Assembly: GCA_036226585.1 (NCBI GenBank)
Contig: CP108997.1
Location: forward strand, 6,076,001 to 6,140,000
Length of the DNA stretch: 64,000 nucleotides
DNA from: Streptomyces sp. NBC_00708
Lineage (GTDB): Bacteria; Actinomycetota; Actinomycetes; Streptomycetales; Streptomycetaceae
Direction: 5' to 3'
Program-made: the position numbers and the translations under genes
Notes under the pieces: model-generated
Databases searched by the model: none
What the model was told of the DNA's origin: nothing
Seen by the model: the letters and a program-made list of their open reading frames with translations, nothing else
Shown here: positions 3,795-47,289 of the stretch, one piece after another
Position numbering within the stretch: position 1 is the first letter of the stretch
Layout: each line of letters begins with the position of its first letter

Positions 3795-3850
3795 GCCGGC
3801 GCACGCTACCAGGGCGGTGGGGAGGGGCACCCCGGATGACGGGTTGCTCC

Positions 3851-3930
3851 GCCGTTCACGACGTCGGCCCGCCGTTCACGACGTCGGCCCGCCGTTCACG
3901 ACGTCGGCCCGCCGTTCACGACGCCGGGCC
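3851..3930. repeat. Four tandem copies of a 20-bp repeat
   Basis: GCCGTTCACGACGTCGGCCC is present exactly three times (3851-3910), and a fourth diverged copy (ACGCCGGGCC at its end) fills 3911-3930. The array sits between two leftward genes, just upstream of the DinB gene and downstream of the membrane protein. Each unit contains ACGACGTCG, a partial palindrome around GACGTC. Confidence 0.95.
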
Positions 3931-3949
3931 GACGTCAAAGAGGCACGCG

Positions 3950-41164: not shown

Positions 41165-41227
41165 GTGCCTCACCACCGGATCCGGTACGGGGTCCGGCCC
41201 CCAGCCGTTCGATGCGCGGGAGGAACC

Positions 41228-41617
41228 ATGACCAGTCCCGACCAGGACCCGAACCAGCAGGAAGGCCCCGCGGACGGTGGTGCGGCCGGTACGCCGGGCG
41301 TCCACGACGGAGGCGCGGACGGCGGGGCGGAAGGTCCCGCGGACGGCGGTGCCGCGGGCACGCCGGGTGTCCATGACGGCGGTGCGGACGGCGGGGCGGA
41401 AGGCCCTGCGGACGGCGGCGCTGCGGGTACGCCCGGCGTGCACGACGGAGGCGCGGACGGCGGGGCGGAAGGCCCTGCGGACGGTGGTGCCGCGGGTACG
41501 CCCGGCGTCCACGACGGCGGTGCGGACGGTGGCGCCGAGGGTCCGGCGGACGGCGGCGCGGCAGGCACCCCCGGTGTGCACGACGGTGGTGCCGACGGCG
41601 GCGCGGACCGTTCTTGA
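41228..41617 (+). CDS. Repeat-containing precursor-like peptide, 129 aa (five identical-length repeats)
   Basis: The ATG follows GGAGGAACC. The protein is a 12-aa leader (MTSPDQDPNQQE), five tandem 23-residue units and a final RS. Every unit starts with GPADGG, contains GTPGVHDGGADGG, and carries one His and three Asp (the last unit has a fourth, from its Glu to Asp change). There are no Cys, Trp, Tyr or Lys. The very low complexity and regular units look like a multi-core substrate for modification. It overlaps the JmjC oxygenase start by 4 bp, so enzyme and substrate are coupled. His-Asp in each unit are natural targets for hydroxylation. I know of no described function for this protein, and the substrate role is inference. 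Confidence 0.75.
   Translation: MTSPDQDPNQQEGPADGGAAGTPGVHDGGADGGAEGPADGGAAGTPGVHDGGADGGAEGPADGGAAGTPGVHDGGADGGAEGPADGGAAGTPGVHDGGADGGAEGPADGGAAGTPGVHDGGADGGADRS
41264..41608 (+). repeat. Five 69-bp tandem repeats encoding the peptide units
   Basis: Five in-frame copies of 69 bp fill exactly 345 bp. They differ mainly at synonymous third positions, while the encoded residues are constant apart from the final Glu to Asp. This suggests purifying selection on the protein rather than recent slippage. Confidence 0.9.
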
Positions 41618-42825
41618 GCACGTCCCCGGCCGGCATCCAGGACCTCCGGGCCGCGAAGGCGGCCCCCGGGGTCCTGGAGTCACGTCTGACGCCCGGCACG
41701 AGCCGGGAGACGTTCGCCCATGACATCTGGGCCCGCACGGCCCTGCTCACCCGCCGGGCCGGCGACTTCTCCGACCTCTTCTCGTCCGGCGCCGTCGACG
41801 AACTCGTCTCGCGGCGCGGACTGCGTACGCCGTTTCTGAGGGTCGCGAAGGACGGTGCGACGCTGCCCGAGGCCTCGTTCACCTCGCCGGCCGGGGTGGG
41901 CGCCACCATCGCCGACCAGGCCGACGACACCGCGCTGTGGCGGGAGTTCGCCGACGGCGCCACCCTCGTCCTGCAGGCGCTGCACCGCACCTGGGCCCCT
42001 GTGGGCGACTTCACCGCCGCGCTCGCCGCCGAACTGGGCCACCCGGTGCAGGCCAACGCCTACGTCACCCCGCCGCAGAACCGGGGCTTCGACGCCCACT
42101 ACGACGTCCACGACGTCTTCGTGCTCCAGATCGAGGGCACCAAGCGCTGGATCGTCCACCCGCCCGTGCACCCCGACCCCCTGCGCGACCAGCCCTGGAC
42201 CGACCGCCGCCGGACTGTCACCGAGGCCGCCCGGGGCGAGCCGTATCTCGACACCGTGCTGGCACCGGGCGACGTCCTCTACCTGCCGCGCGGCTGGCTC
42301 CACGCCGCCGAGGCGCAGGGCGAGGTCTCGGTCCACCTGACGCTCGGCGTGCACGCCTGGACCCGGTACGCCCTGGCCGAACAGCTCATGCGCGCCGCAC
42401 TGGCGGACCTGCGCGAGGACCCCTGGATGCGCGGCTCCCTCCCACTCGGCGTGACCGGCCCCGACGAGGAGGCCGCCCCGGTCCGCGAACGCCTGCGCGC
42501 GGCCCTCGCCGCGGCCGACCCCGCGCCGCACTTCCACCGCACCCGGCGCGCCCAGGCCCGCCCCGCACCGCTCGGCCCGCTGGCCCAGCTCGCCGCCGTG
42601 GACGGGCTCGGCCCCGGCACCCCGGTCCGGCTGCGGGACGCGCTGGAGGCCCGCCTCGAAGGCCGCCGCCTGGTCACCCGGGTGGGCTGGCTCGACTTCC
42701 CGGACGCGGACCTGCCGGCCCTGGACCGCCTGCTCGCCGGCCAGGTGCGCACCGCCGGTGACCTCGGCCTCGCCTGCGCGGGGAGGCTGCTGCGCGCGGG
42801 CGTCCTCGTCCCGGCGGCGCAGTGA
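41614..42825 (+). CDS. JmjC/cupin ribosomal-oxygenase-like 2OG-Fe(II) hydroxylase
   Basis: The 403-aa protein starts with TTG overlapping the peptide stop. It resembles the YcfD/MINA53/NO66 ribosomal-oxygenase family, which hydroxylates Arg or His side chains with 2-oxoglutarate. The iron triad is intact: HYD (residues about 161-163, in FDAHYDVHDVFVLQIEG) and the distal His in YLPRGWLHAAEAQGE (near residue 230). KRWIVHPP is the family strand. The C-terminal winged-helix-like part matches ROX dimer/winged regions. It is coupled on both sides, to the repeat peptide and to the Suc/ferredoxin-like gene, so its substrate is probably that peptide. Confidence 0.88.
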   Translation: MSTSPAGIQDLRAAKAAPGVLESRLTPGTSRETFAHDIWARTALLTRRAGDFSDLFSSGAVDELVSRRGLRTPFLRVAKDGATLPEASFTSPAGVGATIADQADDTALWREFADGATLVLQALHRTWAPVGDFTAALAAELGHPVQANAYVTPPQNRGFDAHYDVHDVFVLQIEGTKRWIVHPPVHPDPLRDQPWTDRRRTVTEAARGEPYLDTVLAPGDVLYLPRGWLHAAEAQGEVSVHLTLGVHAWTRYALAEQLMRAALADLREDPWMRGSLPLGVTGPDEEAAPVRERLRAALAAADPAPHFHRTRRAQARPAPLGPLAQLAAVDGLGPGTPVRLRDALEARLEGRRLVTRVGWLDFPDADLPALDRLLAGQVRTAGDLGLACAGRLLRAGVLVPAAQ

Positions 42826-43727
42826 GGACGGAACGCTTCTTCTGCGCCGACGCGGCACGGGCCCGCGGTGACGCGCTCCCGGGCACGGCGCCGTACGGCC
42901 TCGTCTGGGTGCTCGTCGAGTACCACGCGCCGTGGCCGGCCAACGGCTACGACGGTCTCGCGCTCGACCCCGGCGCCAAGGCCCTCCTCTTCGAGGCGGC
43001 CCGCGCGGTCCGCGCCCGCATCCTCCTGATCAGACGCCACGGCCGCCGCGCGGGGGACGCCGGCCCCCGGCGCTGGGCCGTACTGCGGTACGACGCCACC
43101 GGCGCCCACCGCCAGCAGTGGGGCACCTGGGAGCGCGACGAGGACCTGGCCAGGATCGCCGACGTACTCGGGGCGCCCGGGGAGCCGGGGGAGACGGGCC
43201 TCCCGCCGGTCGTCCTCGTCTGTACCCACGGCCGGCACGACACCTGCTGCGCCCTGCGCGGGCGTCCGGTGGCCGGCGCGCTGAGCGAGCGGTGGCCGGA
43301 CCTGGTGTGGGAGTGCACGCATGTGGGCGGCGACCGCTTCGCCGCCAATGTGCTGGTCGCGCCCGACGGCGTCTACTACGGCGGCCTGGATGCCGCTTCG
43401 TCCGTCGCCGTCGTCGAACAGCACCTCGCGGGGCGCGTCGACGCCGAGCACCTGCGCGGTTACACCGACCTCTTCCCGGCCCAGCAGGCGGCCCTCGCCG
43501 CCGTACTCGCCCGCTACGGCCCGGCCGCCCGCCACGCCTACACGGTCACCGGCACCACCCGCGCGGGCCCCCACTGGCTGATCCGCCTCACCGGCCCCGC
43601 CCCGAGCACGACGGCGTACGACGTGGAGGTCACCGCCCACCGCACCCCACCCCGCCAACTCACCTGCAACGGCCCGGCGACGAGCGCGGCCATGCTCCAC
43701 GAGGTGACGTCGATCCGAGTCGGCTGA
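42822..43727 (+). CDS. Sucrase/ferredoxin-like (thioredoxin-fold) protein
   Basis: The 301-aa protein starts with GTG overlapping the oxygenase stop (GTGA). It carries the Suc_Fer-like pattern: CTHGRHDTCCALRGRPV, WECTHVGGDRFAANVLV and GVYYGGLD. The first two motifs (CTH...CC and CTHVGG) are the likely 2Fe-2S ligands, as in Apd1-type proteins. It could supply electrons or sense redox state for the cassette. The N-terminus begins with CADAARARGDALPGTAPYG. It ends before the convergent mcrC gene. Confidence 0.8.
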   Translation: MRTERFFCADAARARGDALPGTAPYGLVWVLVEYHAPWPANGYDGLALDPGAKALLFEAARAVRARILLIRRHGRRAGDAGPRRWAVLRYDATGAHRQQWGTWERDEDLARIADVLGAPGEPGETGLPPVVLVCTHGRHDTCCALRGRPVAGALSERWPDLVWECTHVGGDRFAANVLVAPDGVYYGGLDAASSVAVVEQHLAGRVDAEHLRGYTDLFPAQQAALAAVLARYGPAARHAYTVTGTTRAGPHWLIRLTGPAPSTTAYDVEVTAHRTPPRQLTCNGPATSAAMLHEVTSIRVG

Positions 43728-43818: not shown

Positions 43819-45165
43819 TCACTGCGGAGAGTGGCCGGCCACCAGACGGGCGGACAGGTCCCCGAACCAGGCCAGCAGTTCGGACGGCTCACGGTCCAGG
43901 TCCACGACGTGCTGGTGCAGTCGCACCCCGCTGCGGTCGCCCGGCCTACGGCTGCCGCGGACCTCGTGGATCCGCTCCCCGTGCTGTCCGGCGGCGTAGA
44001 CGAGATGCCCTTCGCCCAGACCGAGCACGGTGCAGTAGGCGAGCATCTGGTAGAGGTCCGCGCTGGGGTACGCCCCGGCTTTCTCGGCCTTGTACTTGGC
44101 GTCGACGACCGCGACCGGAGTACGTCCGTCCGGCTGGTGGACGACCAGGTCCGGGCGCATCCGGATGCTGTGGGCAGTGTCGAGGTGATGCGGGTCCTGC
44201 AACCGGCCGATGAGCCCGTGTTCACGCAGGGCCTCCCGCAGGGCTCCGGTGATGAAGTCCTCGAAGAGGACGTTCATGTCGAAGAGGAAGCCATGCAGGG
44301 GGAGTTCGCCGGGCCGGTGCTCGGGTGACGTGCCGCGGAGCACTGCCTCGGACAGCTGCAGCGCCGGCCGGTAGCGGGCATTGAGCCGGGACGGTGTCCA
44401 CCCGGGCAGGCCCCGCCCTCGGACGAGCGGCGCGGCGTCGGCGAGCCGTACCCGTTGGTGGTGCAGGCGCCGTCGCACGTCACCGGGAACATCGGGAAGC
44501 CGTAGCAGCGCCTCGCAGGCCGCCCGCAGGATCCGGTTCTCGGGGATGTCCGAGGTGTACGCGTCGTAGGCGATCTCGACCGGCGGGGTCCGGCCGAAGT
44601 GCCGCCGGATCTGCTCTGCCTCGCGCACCCGCCCGCGCAGGACGAGCGCCGACTCCGCGACCCGCTGGTAGCCCTGGAGAACCCCCTGGCGCAAGGCATG
44701 GTCGATCTGCCGTTCCACGGCGTACGCGAGTGCGGGCACGACCTCCTCGTGGACGCCGACATCGACGGTGCCGTCGCGCCCCTGCCGCCAGGCCCGGGCG
44801 GGATCGAGGCTGAAGCCGAGGAGGAAGAACAGGCGGCGGACAGGGGTTTTCGGCATGATACGCAGGGTGAGCGCCTCGCGTGTCCGGAGGGCCGGGGCGC
44901 CGCCCGGGGTGGGGGCGGTGGGCAGCGGCACGCGGACGGCTCCGACGCGGCTTCCTGCCCGCAGAAGCCAGTGGCCGGGACGTTCGGGGTCAGGGGTGGC
45001 TGACTCCAGCACGCCGGAGGCGGCCAGCGCGCGACCGGCGGCGGTGTCGAGCGGGACGGAGCGGGCCGGGGCATGCTCCCGCAGCGTGATCGCAGGTTCC
45101 GCGCCGTGACCCCGGGGTGGCGTGACCGGCGACGCGGCGGGGCGCCCGTTCCGCGGTGTGCTCAC
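43819..45165 (-). CDS. mcrC: McrC-type nuclease subunit of McrBC restriction
   Basis: The protein has 448 aa from the GTG at 45165, which overlaps the mcrB stop by 4 bp. It shows the McrC pattern, with VEIAYDAYTSDIPENRILRA in the middle. The PD-(D/E)xK nuclease is in the C-terminal third: FDMNVLFEDFITGALREAL, then RPDLVV (PD near residue 339) and VAVVDAKYK (D-x-K near residue 355). It partners the McrB GTPase to cleave modified (typically methylated) DNA. An in-frame extension upstream of 45165 lacks a ribosome site. Confidence 0.9.
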   Translation of the reverse strand: MSTPRNGRPAASPVTPPRGHGAEPAITLREHAPARSVPLDTAAGRALAASGVLESATPDPERPGHWLLRAGSRVGAVRVPLPTAPTPGGAPALRTREALTLRIMPKTPVRRLFFLLGFSLDPARAWRQGRDGTVDVGVHEEVVPALAYAVERQIDHALRQGVLQGYQRVAESALVLRGRVREAEQIRRHFGRTPPVEIAYDAYTSDIPENRILRAACEALLRLPDVPGDVRRRLHHQRVRLADAAPLVRGRGLPGWTPSRLNARYRPALQLSEAVLRGTSPEHRPGELPLHGFLFDMNVLFEDFITGALREALREHGLIGRLQDPHHLDTAHSIRMRPDLVVHQPDGRTPVAVVDAKYKAEKAGAYPSADLYQMLAYCTVLGLGEGHLVYAAGQHGERIHEVRGSRRPGDRSGVRLHQHVVDLDREPSELLAWFGDLSARLVAGHSPQ

Positions 45166-46931
45166 CCTTGCGCTTCCCGCAGAGCGTCGAGCCCGTAGCA
45201 GTGCTCGATGTCGATACCCTCGCCGAAGTGGTACTCGCTCAGCAGCGGAAGGATCTTCGTCCGCCACGTACGGTCGAGGCCGCCGGGTCGATGGGCCCCG
45301 GGCTTCATCAGGTACGAGGGGCCGATGGCGAAGTCCGGGTCGTTCAGTCGGCCGTTCAGCGCGTCGAGGAGGCGGGCGGGCTCGTCGTCCCTGCCCTCGC
45401 GCTCCAGCCAACGAGCCAGCAGGCCCCGCGTCGGCTCGGAGCGGGGGGAAAGCTCCACGAAGGCGAACCGGCGGCGCATCGCGGCATCGACGAGAGCGAT
45501 GGAACGGTCGGCGGTGTTCATGGTGCCGATCACGAACAGGTTCGGCGGCAGGGCGAAGTCGTCCCCGGAATAGGTGAGGCGGACGGTCTTTTTGCGGTAC
45601 TCCAGCAGGAAGTACAGCTCCCCGAACACCTTGGCCAGATTGGCGCGGTTGATCTCATCAATGATCAGAAAGTGCGGGATGTGCTTGTTGCCGTCGCGCG
45701 ACGCGAGGTCGGCGAGCTCGCGTAGCGGGCCGGCGTTCAGCCGGAACGCGACCTCGCGGGTCTCCGGATCCTCGACGGGCCGGAATCCCTCGAAGAAGTC
45801 CTCGTAGGCGTACGACGGGTGGAACTGCACCAGCTTGACCTGTTCGGCGCCACCTCCGAAGTGCTCGGCGAGTTTCATCGCCAGGTAGGTCTTGCCGGTT
45901 CCGGGCGGCCCGTAGAACACCAACTGGCGTTCATCCCAGAGTAGTTCCCGGATCTCGTCGAGCCAGGACCGGTCGTGGACCAGGAGTTCAGAGGCGAGAG
46001 CGTCCGTGACGGGGGCGAGTTCCAGTTCCTTCGTCCGCGCCGGGGGTACTTCCTCGTCCGTGACGGGGGCGGGGGCGCCGAGCGCGGTCAGGGCATCCGC
46101 GACCGACGTGAGATCCACGACGTCGTGCTGCACGGAGAGCTTCTGCTGAAGGTCTTCGGGCAGTTCGTCGTACGGATGTGCCTGGGACTGCCACGAGACG
46201 GCGCGGCGCAGGTTGGTCAGCCCGCCGGGGGAGTCGGTCTGCTGGGCCTCGCCGGCGATCTGCCCGAGATGCAGCTGCCCCTCGGACAAGGTGGCGACGG
46301 TGTCCCCGACGCGCATCTGCGTCAGGAAGGCGTGCAGGTCGTCGACGAGGCCGCGCTTCTGACTGTAGGAGGCGGTGCCTTCGTAGCCGTCCTCGACGTA
46401 GCGGCGCAGGCCGCTCTTCGTCGGGTCCGGCTCGTCCAGTGGCGGCAGATGGGCGCCGGACAGTGAGACGAGTCCTTCGCTCAGCCACATCCGGTGCACG
46501 AGATCCCTGCCGGACACGTTGGAACCGCGCACCAGCCAGGACTTGCGCGGCGCACGCCAGCTCGGAGTGAGGTAGTCCGAGAGCGGATGCCCGGAGGCGT
46601 CCCGCCATGCCTCCGGCCCGCTCACGCCGTAGCCGATGACGAGCGAGGCCGCGGCGGAGGCGGAGTTGCACTCGATGTCCCGCGCCGCCACCCAGTACCG
46701 GCTTCCCCCGTCGGGGGCGTTGGCGAGGGAACCGTCCGCACGGAGCGCGGCCCGCTGCCGGCGCGTGTGGTCGCTCAGGCCGGGCCACTCGGTGGCGCTG
46801 ACGGACGACCCTTGACGTACCAGGAACCTGAGAGAACCGTTGTTCCCGGATTCGGTGCACAGACATCCGTGCGCGGTGGGACCGTCACCAGGAAGCCGGA
46901 GACGGAACTCGGGGTAGTCCGGGTGTTTCAT
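45162..46931 (-). CDS. mcrB: McrB-type AAA+ GTPase of type IV restriction
   Basis: The protein has 589 aa from the ATG at 46931. Residues about 1-330 are the variable specificity part and lack a domain I recognise. The AAA+ part has Walker A FYGPPGTGKTYLAM (near 344), Walker B IIDEINRANLAKVFGELYFL (near 426), and MNTADRSIALVDAAMRRRF, the McrB-specific motif. McrB binds GTP, translocates on DNA and recruits McrC. The N-terminal part is less GC-rich than neighbours, as expected for a mobile specificity module. The upstream 500 bp hold remnants of other genes. Confidence 0.9.
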   Translation of the reverse strand: MKHPDYPEFRLRLPGDGPTAHGCLCTESGNNGSLRFLVRQGSSVSATEWPGLSDHTRRQRAALRADGSLANAPDGGSRYWVAARDIECNSASAAASLVIGYGVSGPEAWRDASGHPLSDYLTPSWRAPRKSWLVRGSNVSGRDLVHRMWLSEGLVSLSGAHLPPLDEPDPTKSGLRRYVEDGYEGTASYSQKRGLVDDLHAFLTQMRVGDTVATLSEGQLHLGQIAGEAQQTDSPGGLTNLRRAVSWQSQAHPYDELPEDLQQKLSVQHDVVDLTSVADALTALGAPAPVTDEEVPPARTKELELAPVTDALASELLVHDRSWLDEIRELLWDERQLVFYGPPGTGKTYLAMKLAEHFGGGAEQVKLVQFHPSYAYEDFFEGFRPVEDPETREVAFRLNAGPLRELADLASRDGNKHIPHFLIIDEINRANLAKVFGELYFLLEYRKKTVRLTYSGDDFALPPNLFVIGTMNTADRSIALVDAAMRRRFAFVELSPRSEPTRGLLARWLEREGRDDEPARLLDALNGRLNDPDFAIGPSYLMKPGAHRPGGLDRTWRTKILPLLSEYHFGEGIDIEHCYGLDALREAQG

Positions 46932-46999
46932 GGAGAGCGGCCTTCCGTGCGGAGGGGCGGGCACGGCAGCAGTGTATCTGTTGACGCTGTACACAAGTC

Positions 47000-47289
47000 G
47001 CGTCCCCCTCGCGACCTCGCGAGCCGAGACTCTGCGTGACCGGTACCGCCGTCGGCTGCCCAATCGCCTGGACGAGCTCGACGGTCCTGCCCACGGGACT
47101 GTCGACCTGCCACTGCATGTTGTCTGGTCCGGCCGCACGAACTACACCCTGGACCGCCCCAAGTCGTGTATGACCCCGGTCGCCGAACAGGCAGCCCATG
47201 TAAGGGACTCGAAGGACCTCGTCCGCCCGGCCTTCGCGGTGGGGCGCGAGGGCCGGGGCGAGTTCGTCAGGTTCGCGGCGGGAGCGTGA
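47000..47289 (+). pseudogene. Chimeric remnant of two regulatory-type genes (DUF397 tail)
   Basis: The frame first encodes RYRRRLPNRLDELDGPAHGT and VDLPLHVVWSGRT. This pattern belongs to a small Streptomyces family, usually of about 120 aa, that lies beside XRE/DUF397 pairs. After position 47170 the frame becomes AAHVRDSKDLVRPAFAVG, the C-terminal half of a DUF397 protein. Neither has its other half, so a deletion fused two neighbouring genes. The short segment downstream (47290-47412) holds nothing I can support. It marks an indel at the edge of the defence island. Confidence 0.6.

Follow-up and report, generated by a model that had tools for sequence, protein, structure and literature searches.

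A tandem Asp-Gly repeat peptide encoded with a JmjC_2 oxygenase and a Suc_Fer-like protein: a candidate RiPP-like cassette of actinobacteria

The JmjC proteins MINA53, NO66 and YcfD hydroxylate His or Arg on ribosomal proteins. Here we analyzed a relative of these enzymes encoded in a 64,000-nucleotide stretch of Streptomyces sp. NBC_00708 (contig CP108997.1, positions 6,076,001 to 6,140,000 of the forward strand; this whole stretch is called the window below), where the gene of a tandem repeat peptide is followed by the genes of a JmjC_2 oxygenase and a Suc_Fer-like protein. A ribosomally encoded peptide thus adjoins a putative modifying enzyme, which is the gene order of ribosomally synthesized and post-translationally modified peptides (RiPPs). 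Judged from sequence comparisons, the three genes probably form a compact RiPP-like cassette, in which the repeat peptide would be a dedicated multi-site substrate of the oxygenase, most likely beta-hydroxylated at Asp.

BipG, the JmjC protein of biphenomycin biosynthesis, acts on a RiPP precursor and is treated in a section headed ornithine hydroxylase (PMC12707348); the likeness to the cassette is that of a JmjC 2-oxoglutarate enzyme lying inside a RiPP gene cluster. The BipG pathway, however, has MNIO, B12 radical SAM, HExxH and TldD genes (PMC12707348), whereas the cassette has no other tailoring gene and encodes a multi-unit Asp-Gly peptide and a Suc_Fer protein. BpmG and PbsQ have been named as related enzymes, PbsQ together with PbsCD giving no further modification (PMC12257519). 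Bacterial PF08007 homologues occur in RiPP-like genomic contexts according to a 2025 survey, the compared portions of which leave the cassette, the repeat peptides and Suc_Fer unmentioned (PMC12710340). No description of the cassette was found among the papers listed from the open PubMed Central (PMC) literature, most subscription papers lying outside that search, and the strings HDGGADG, EGPADGG and GHDGGAD are in no paper of that literature. An earlier note on this DNA had called the system undescribed, which holds for the cassette in the open literature searched but not for a JmjC hydroxylase of a RiPP precursor as such, since BipG has been published (PMC12707348).

The features of the cassette in the window are as follows.

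41228..41617, plus strand: repeat peptide of 129 aa, with an N-terminal part of 11 aa, five 23-aa units and the tail DRS
41261..41605, plus strand: in-frame 69-bp units starting at 41261, 41330, 41399, 41468 and 41537, each encoding EGPADGGAAGTPGVHDGGADGGA
41218..41223, plus strand: Shine-Dalgarno-like GGGAGG, 4 nt 5' of the peptide ATG, as read in the sequence
41614..42825, plus strand: JmjC_2 / ROX-like Fe(II)/2-oxoglutarate oxygenase of 403 aa with a TTG start (PF08007, E = 8.6e-29)
42097..42105, plus strand: H162-Y-D164, the first two metal ligands (HxD), invariant in 21/21 aligned sequences and matching HYD of NO66
42301..42303, plus strand: H230, the third metal ligand, invariant in 21/21 aligned sequences and matching a His of NO66
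42822..43727, plus strand: Suc_Fer-like protein of 301 aa with a GTG start (PF06999, E = 1.4e-16)
43221..43250, plus strand: C134-x8-C143 of the thioredoxin-like ferredoxin motif, C142 also kept, in 42/42 aligned copies
43320..43334, plus strand: H167-x3-D171 in place of Hx3H (H167 in 42/42, D in 41/42 and C in 1/42 cassette copies)

The genes are arranged in the order peptide, oxygenase and Suc_Fer-like protein with a 4-bp overlap at each junction: the oxygenase TTG at 41614 overlaps the peptide stop (TTGA) and the Suc_Fer GTG at 42822 overlaps the oxygenase stop (GTGA). Open reading frames (ORFs), Tandem Repeats Finder (69-bp array at 41260-41607, 84% matches) and Pfam all bore out this arrangement as the earlier note had described it. 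The five 23-aa units are identical at the protein level. Units 1-4 differ in 15 columns, every one of them at a third codon position (pairwise sums of 55 synonymous and 0 non-synonymous differences), and unit 5 differs from them by synonymous changes only (20 codons compared). If 29% of random changes are synonymous and sites are independent, the probability that all 15 columns are silent is about 9e-9. Because the units vary only synonymously, selection acts on their protein sequence, as the earlier note had suggested. The number of recognised units ranges from 1 to 7 among 90 distinct peptides, a variation that the earlier note had proposed to look for. The window peptide has no Pfam or NCBIfam match, and four relatives have no NCBIfam match. 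The name BatC protein is attached to such peptides in two database records, and no basis for it was found among the matches listed (15 of 23,419).

To examine the pairing of peptide and oxygenase, GTDB species genomes were scanned with the oxygenase alone, loci being chosen by oxygenase and not by peptide. This gave 79 named loci from 13 named genera (Streptomyces, Actinacidiphila, Arthrobacter, Pseudarthrobacter, Flexivirga, Raineyella, Blastococcus, Actinoplanes, Symbioplanes, Cryobacterium, Gordonia, Mycolicibacterium and Mycobacterium). We counted 79 and not 108 loci because much of L081-L108 repeats genomes already present as named loci. The later comparison of upstream ORFs left out L196 (a duplicate of L193) as well as L110-L114, L136, L140 and L165, which copy the window or L084. 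A repeat lies at the oxygenase start in all 79, and a same-strand repeat ORF ends at most 200 nt from that start in 78 of them. At L059 the repeat stops 25 nt before the oxygenase start but the reading frame continues, and at L064 the repeats are irregular.

Within Streptomyces, a close orthologue of the oxygenase is present in 29 of 295 genomes (E <= 1.7e-140; the best match of the next genome is 2.3e-49). The closest named relatives at the locus are Streptomyces sp. col6 and sp. 2131.1, with oxygenase identities of 96% and 94%. A DNA pattern for HDGGADG, which is blind to peptides whose units all have Q, adjoins the orthologue in 29/29 genomes and is clustered, that is, with two or more same-strand matches within 1 kb, in 28/29; the unclustered case (G147) has a one-unit peptide and an oxygenase that runs off the contig. 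Among the 266 genomes without the orthologue, scattered single matches are common and clustered matches were found in none, all 15 genomes with at least two same-strand matches having been checked individually. The claimed pairing of a dedicated repeat peptide with the oxygenase was therefore upheld by its co-occurrence, both in the 79 named loci and in Streptomyces. The cassette-type Suc_Fer protein is found in 31 Streptomyces genomes (E <= 1.9e-111; next 5.1e-33), namely the 29 and two more. In one of these (G190, locus L236, G190:C7:66500-74500), the Suc_Fer gene lies beside a C-terminal oxygenase remnant and no HDGGADG motif was found in the genome, apparently a decayed cassette; in the other (G116) the Suc_Fer gene runs off the contig and no oxygenase match was found. 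At the 29 loci, nothing beyond the cassette recurs in more than 4/29, except antisense frames of the two genes, and among 20 further loci (14-15 kb, 13 families) one other gene type is common to three families, though its place varies. Across families, recurrence is confined to the peptide, the oxygenase and the Suc_Fer gene.

A phylum search covered 396 genomes and gave oxygenase matches in 58 at E <= 1e-30, Streptomyces paralogues included. In families outside the first group, a Suc_Fer gene lies 3' of the oxygenase in 33 of 37 assigned sister-clade loci (the match at L160 is weak, 6.5e-06). The peptides upstream of the sister-clade oxygenases are different tandem repeats (DGDATD, DADGTD, TDADADS, and at one locus, L158, DGTDQGVxGGTYGPRDA), with Asp making up 28% and His 0.8% of residues in this second class. 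The median Asp fraction of the most Asp-rich upstream ORF, a choice per locus that itself favours Asp, is 0.33 at 36 sister-clade loci and 0.08 at 37 paralogue loci (P-value = 2e-13, Mann–Whitney test, rows not independent). The N-termini of the second class are often like L-S/T-D-E-D-I-E-T-V, some with GG after it, which we take to recall double-glycine RiPP leaders, and the DGG peptides of Mycobacterium type begin MALDDDDITTS. A regex for a leader-like L-S/T-D-x-D-I-x-T motif, written with these sequences in view, matched 35 of 38 distinct ORFs lying upstream in the Asp-repeat set. L180 and L181, with oxygenases from outside the sister clade, belong to this set; the three misses are L180, L149 (LTDEQI) and L160 (LSDEDV, cut by start choice). 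L181 itself has two copies of PTEDDENLDAPGEHSQDTGDE and a leader-like start ITDNDITS 5' of a divergent JmjC gene, and no Suc_Fer match within the fetched stretch.

Peptide class and oxygenase phylogeny go together. In a maximum-likelihood tree built from 101 oxygenases, six peptide labels need 13 changes, compared with a shuffled mean of 53.6, with peptide classes, clade lists and leader regex set after inspection of the data, 'none' covering loci with unreadable upstream regions (L169, L190), and the regex mislabelling L158 as DxD (its repeat is DGTDQGV) and L182 as 'none' (its repeat is Asp-rich). On the same tree, 2 changes account for the 26 DGG rows and 4 for the 33 Asp-repeat rows.

To determine which residue may be modified, positions of the DGG-class units were counted leave-one-out, one motif position being allowed to vary at a time. 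The three Asp positions are kept in 290/290, 290/291 and 290/291 units, while the His position has H in 271, Q in 17, A in 1 and R in 1 of 290. In 4 of 90 peptides the site lacks His, with Q in L050 (Flexivirga), L027 (Pseudarthrobacter) and L145, and A in L064. Since Asp is all but invariant, whereas 19/290 units have another residue in place of His and the second class contains little of it, His is an improbable target for the system as a whole; Asp near-invariance set against His variability would make Asp the parsimonious one. The earlier note had left His and Asp side by side as targets, and of these Asp, with beta-hydroxylation, appears to be the best guess. Beta-carbon hydroxylation of Asn, Asp and His is known from FIH-type JmjC enzymes.

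The oxygenase carries a JmjC_2 domain with an intact HxD...H triad, as ROX oxygenases do, and shares with NO66, MINA53 and YcfD (PF08007) the fold family and these ligands. It differs from them in being encoded with a co-evolving repeat peptide, and nothing seen at the locus points to a ribosomal substrate. The solved structures closest to it are those of NO66 (1.6e-32) and MINA53 (3.3e-23), because of which a His target is possible for the DGG clade. If so, the His of every GVHDGG/GGHDGG unit would be hydroxylated in the way that NO66 and MINA53 hydroxylate His of ribosomal proteins, and the target in the sister clade would be a different one. The presence of His in most DGG-clade units fits this explanation, yet the Q, R or A found in its place, the four peptides without His at the site and the His-poor sister clade make it unlikely, and we would give it about one chance in a handful.

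Less probable again is some other oxidation of the repeats, such as a cross-link, ring formation or desaturation. In its favour, a 2025 JACS paper by Xia et al. reports, by its title, macrocyclisation by 2-oxoglutarate dioxygenases of RiPP pathways, and related enzymes may be among those it covers. The units, however, consist of Asp, Gly, Ala, Pro, Glu and Thr/Ser, with hardly any aromatic or Cys partners for a cross-link.

The peptide might also remain unmodified, as an acidic disordered partner, a metal buffer or a leader ORF controlling translation of the oxygenase. The stop/start overlap suggests translational coupling, the Streptomyces peptides have no DI leader and processing genes are lacking at the loci, all of which agree with such a role. 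Conservation at the protein level with free third positions, unit numbers from 1 to 7 and a peptide class that tracks the enzyme clade argue against it, and we consider it improbable. That the oxygenase is an ordinary ribosomal oxygenase and the peptide incidental is very improbable: the names NO66 and ribosomal protein L16 Arg81 hydroxylase are frequent among the homologues listed, but no ribosomal gene is among the recurring neighbours, genomic context favours the peptide, and the motif lies beside the orthologue in 29/29 genomes while clustering in none of the 266 without it.

Our preferred reading, modification of the peptide by its own oxygenase, builds on the gene order, the exclusivity of the pairing, selection on the units, the switching of peptide class with enzyme clade and the near-invariance of Asp. 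The oxygenase would act on every unit, most likely beta-hydroxylating the Asp of D-G-G / A-D-G, and the resulting poly-Asp-Gly chain would be hydroxylated, acidic and flexible; from its composition we guess that it may bind metal. Several observations weigh against this reading, in addition to the post hoc classes and the Asp-favouring choice of ORFs described above. No protease, exporter/transporter or other tailoring gene recurs at the 29 loci or at the 20 loci of 13 families; the gene neighbourhood therefore gives no support for removal of a leader or for export. Just 18 of 90 DGG-class peptides match a loose DI leader regex, with starts taken as the nearest ATG, which trims some leaders. 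One DGG-clade oxygenase (L147) follows an upstream ORF without repeats. The nearest characterised enzymes, NO66 and MINA53, are His hydroxylases, and His is present in 271/290 DGG-clade units. Finally, paralogue clades with other short peptides show that such pairing is not peculiar to Asp repeats.

A broader proposal, which we find possible and would put forward tentatively, is that the cassettes represent a widespread, previously unnamed class in which tandem Asp-rich precursors co-evolve with their own JmjC_2 oxygenase, which would install beta-hydroxy-Asp or an equivalent at many sites. The products would be hydroxylated polyacidic metal binders, much bacterial annotation as NO66 or L16-Arg hydroxylase would be wrong, and the HX3D Suc_Fer protein would represent an iron-sulphur partner of a new type. 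The sister-clade profile matches 6534 of 8000 scored clusters at E <= 1e-40, and the names NO66 or ribosomal protein L16 Arg81 hydroxylase are common among these homologues (best 120 of 6534). Should the peptide prove to be the substrate, many of the actinobacterial proteins so named may be peptide-modifying enzymes. Natural substrates with one to seven units and His-to-Gln variants make the target residue, processivity and the role of Suc_Fer directly testable. No C-terminal winged-helix or RiPP recognition element (RRE)-like domain was found by Pfam in 12 sister-clade oxygenases, and PADLOC gave no match for the window oxygenase or Suc_Fer protein.

The third gene product is the sole PF06999 match in its source genome. 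Apd1 and Aim32 are thioredoxin-like [2Fe-2S] proteins, the Aim32 motif being CX8CXnHX3H (PMC8482512). The cassette protein resembles them in its Suc_Fer-like domain and CX8C, but HX3D (41/42) or HX3C (one copy) replaces HX3H; the bis-histidinyl ligand set CX8C...HX3H is therefore incomplete, the second His being replaced. HX3H was seen in all 10 standalone Streptomyces Suc_Fer paralogues examined, and C8 and C282 are likewise conserved among the 42 aligned cassette copies. One candidate idea is that HX3D is an altered cluster ligand. A same-strand Suc_Fer gene is present at 74 of the 79 named loci; of the other five, L053, L057 and L066 lie at contig ends, while L067 (Actinoplanes) and L072 (Symbioplanes) appear to lack the gene, as does L223, a 15-kb stretch of another genome. 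2-Oxoglutarate oxygenases generally need no electron donor. The earlier note had cast this protein as an electron partner, a role left without support by the Asp in place of the second ligand His and by the lineages without the gene. It may have an accessory function as a redox or iron protein, one that a majority of the lineages use and some do without.

No same-strand Suc_Fer match was found at any of 37 distant JmjC paralogue loci, and no DGG repeats at the 21 of them searched whole or in the upstream ORF, which alone was inspected, of the other 16. We had considered these loci as a plain negative control and rejected this use, since several carry other short peptides upstream; for the same reason, what they demonstrate is that the pairing is specific and not that peptides are missing. 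Oxygenase homologues away from repeat peptides, named beforehand as evidence against the pairing, were thus encountered among distant paralogues only, several of them with other short peptides. A short peptide type ending near SDGGGTGRSDGND lies beside distant Streptomyces JmjC_2 paralogues (L124, L131-L133, L192, L193, L201, L202). At L238:5757-5903, L116 and L125, a DEIEV leader-like part and two DNDPxDP-like repeats precede a cupin gene, and a Streptomyces clavuligerus plasmid carries one DEIEV/DNDPxDP peptide. Two distant Streptomyces plasmid paralogues have the upstream peptides LEPDEIEVI...ADNDPSDP (L238) and ...SDNTGGKSDMNDT (L239). A plasmid of Nostoc sp. C057 (L240:4536-7180) carries short ORFs, an oxygenase-related cupin protein and an annotated sucrase ferredoxin in the gene order of the window; its annotated 46-aa peptide and a second ORF, read by eye, share PKFTKxxWxxGE and have no Asp repeats. 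From the Nostoc and plasmid-paralogue peptides, the association of a JmjC_2 enzyme with a short peptide of its own may predate the repeat classes.

When 86 distinct 300-bp regions upstream were scanned and each set of boxes was compared with one shuffle, no clear excess of IdeR/DmdR, Zur, Rex, CIRCE, LexA or Crp-like boxes appeared, with a slight excess only for LexA (mean mismatches 3.98 compared with 4.34 in the shuffle, best 0 compared with 2). Upstream of the cassette lies a co-directional gene for a CBM2-fn3-GH18 protein (Pfam) and downstream lie opposite-strand genes, both outside the conserved unit. Two genes after the cassette on the minus strand (43819-47138) presumably resemble a McrBC-type pair; the second matches a PADLOC restriction-enzyme model (E = 1e-17) and the first has no PADLOC match. 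A separate 20-bp tandem repeat of 4.3 copies with 95% matches is located at 3849-3935 of the window.

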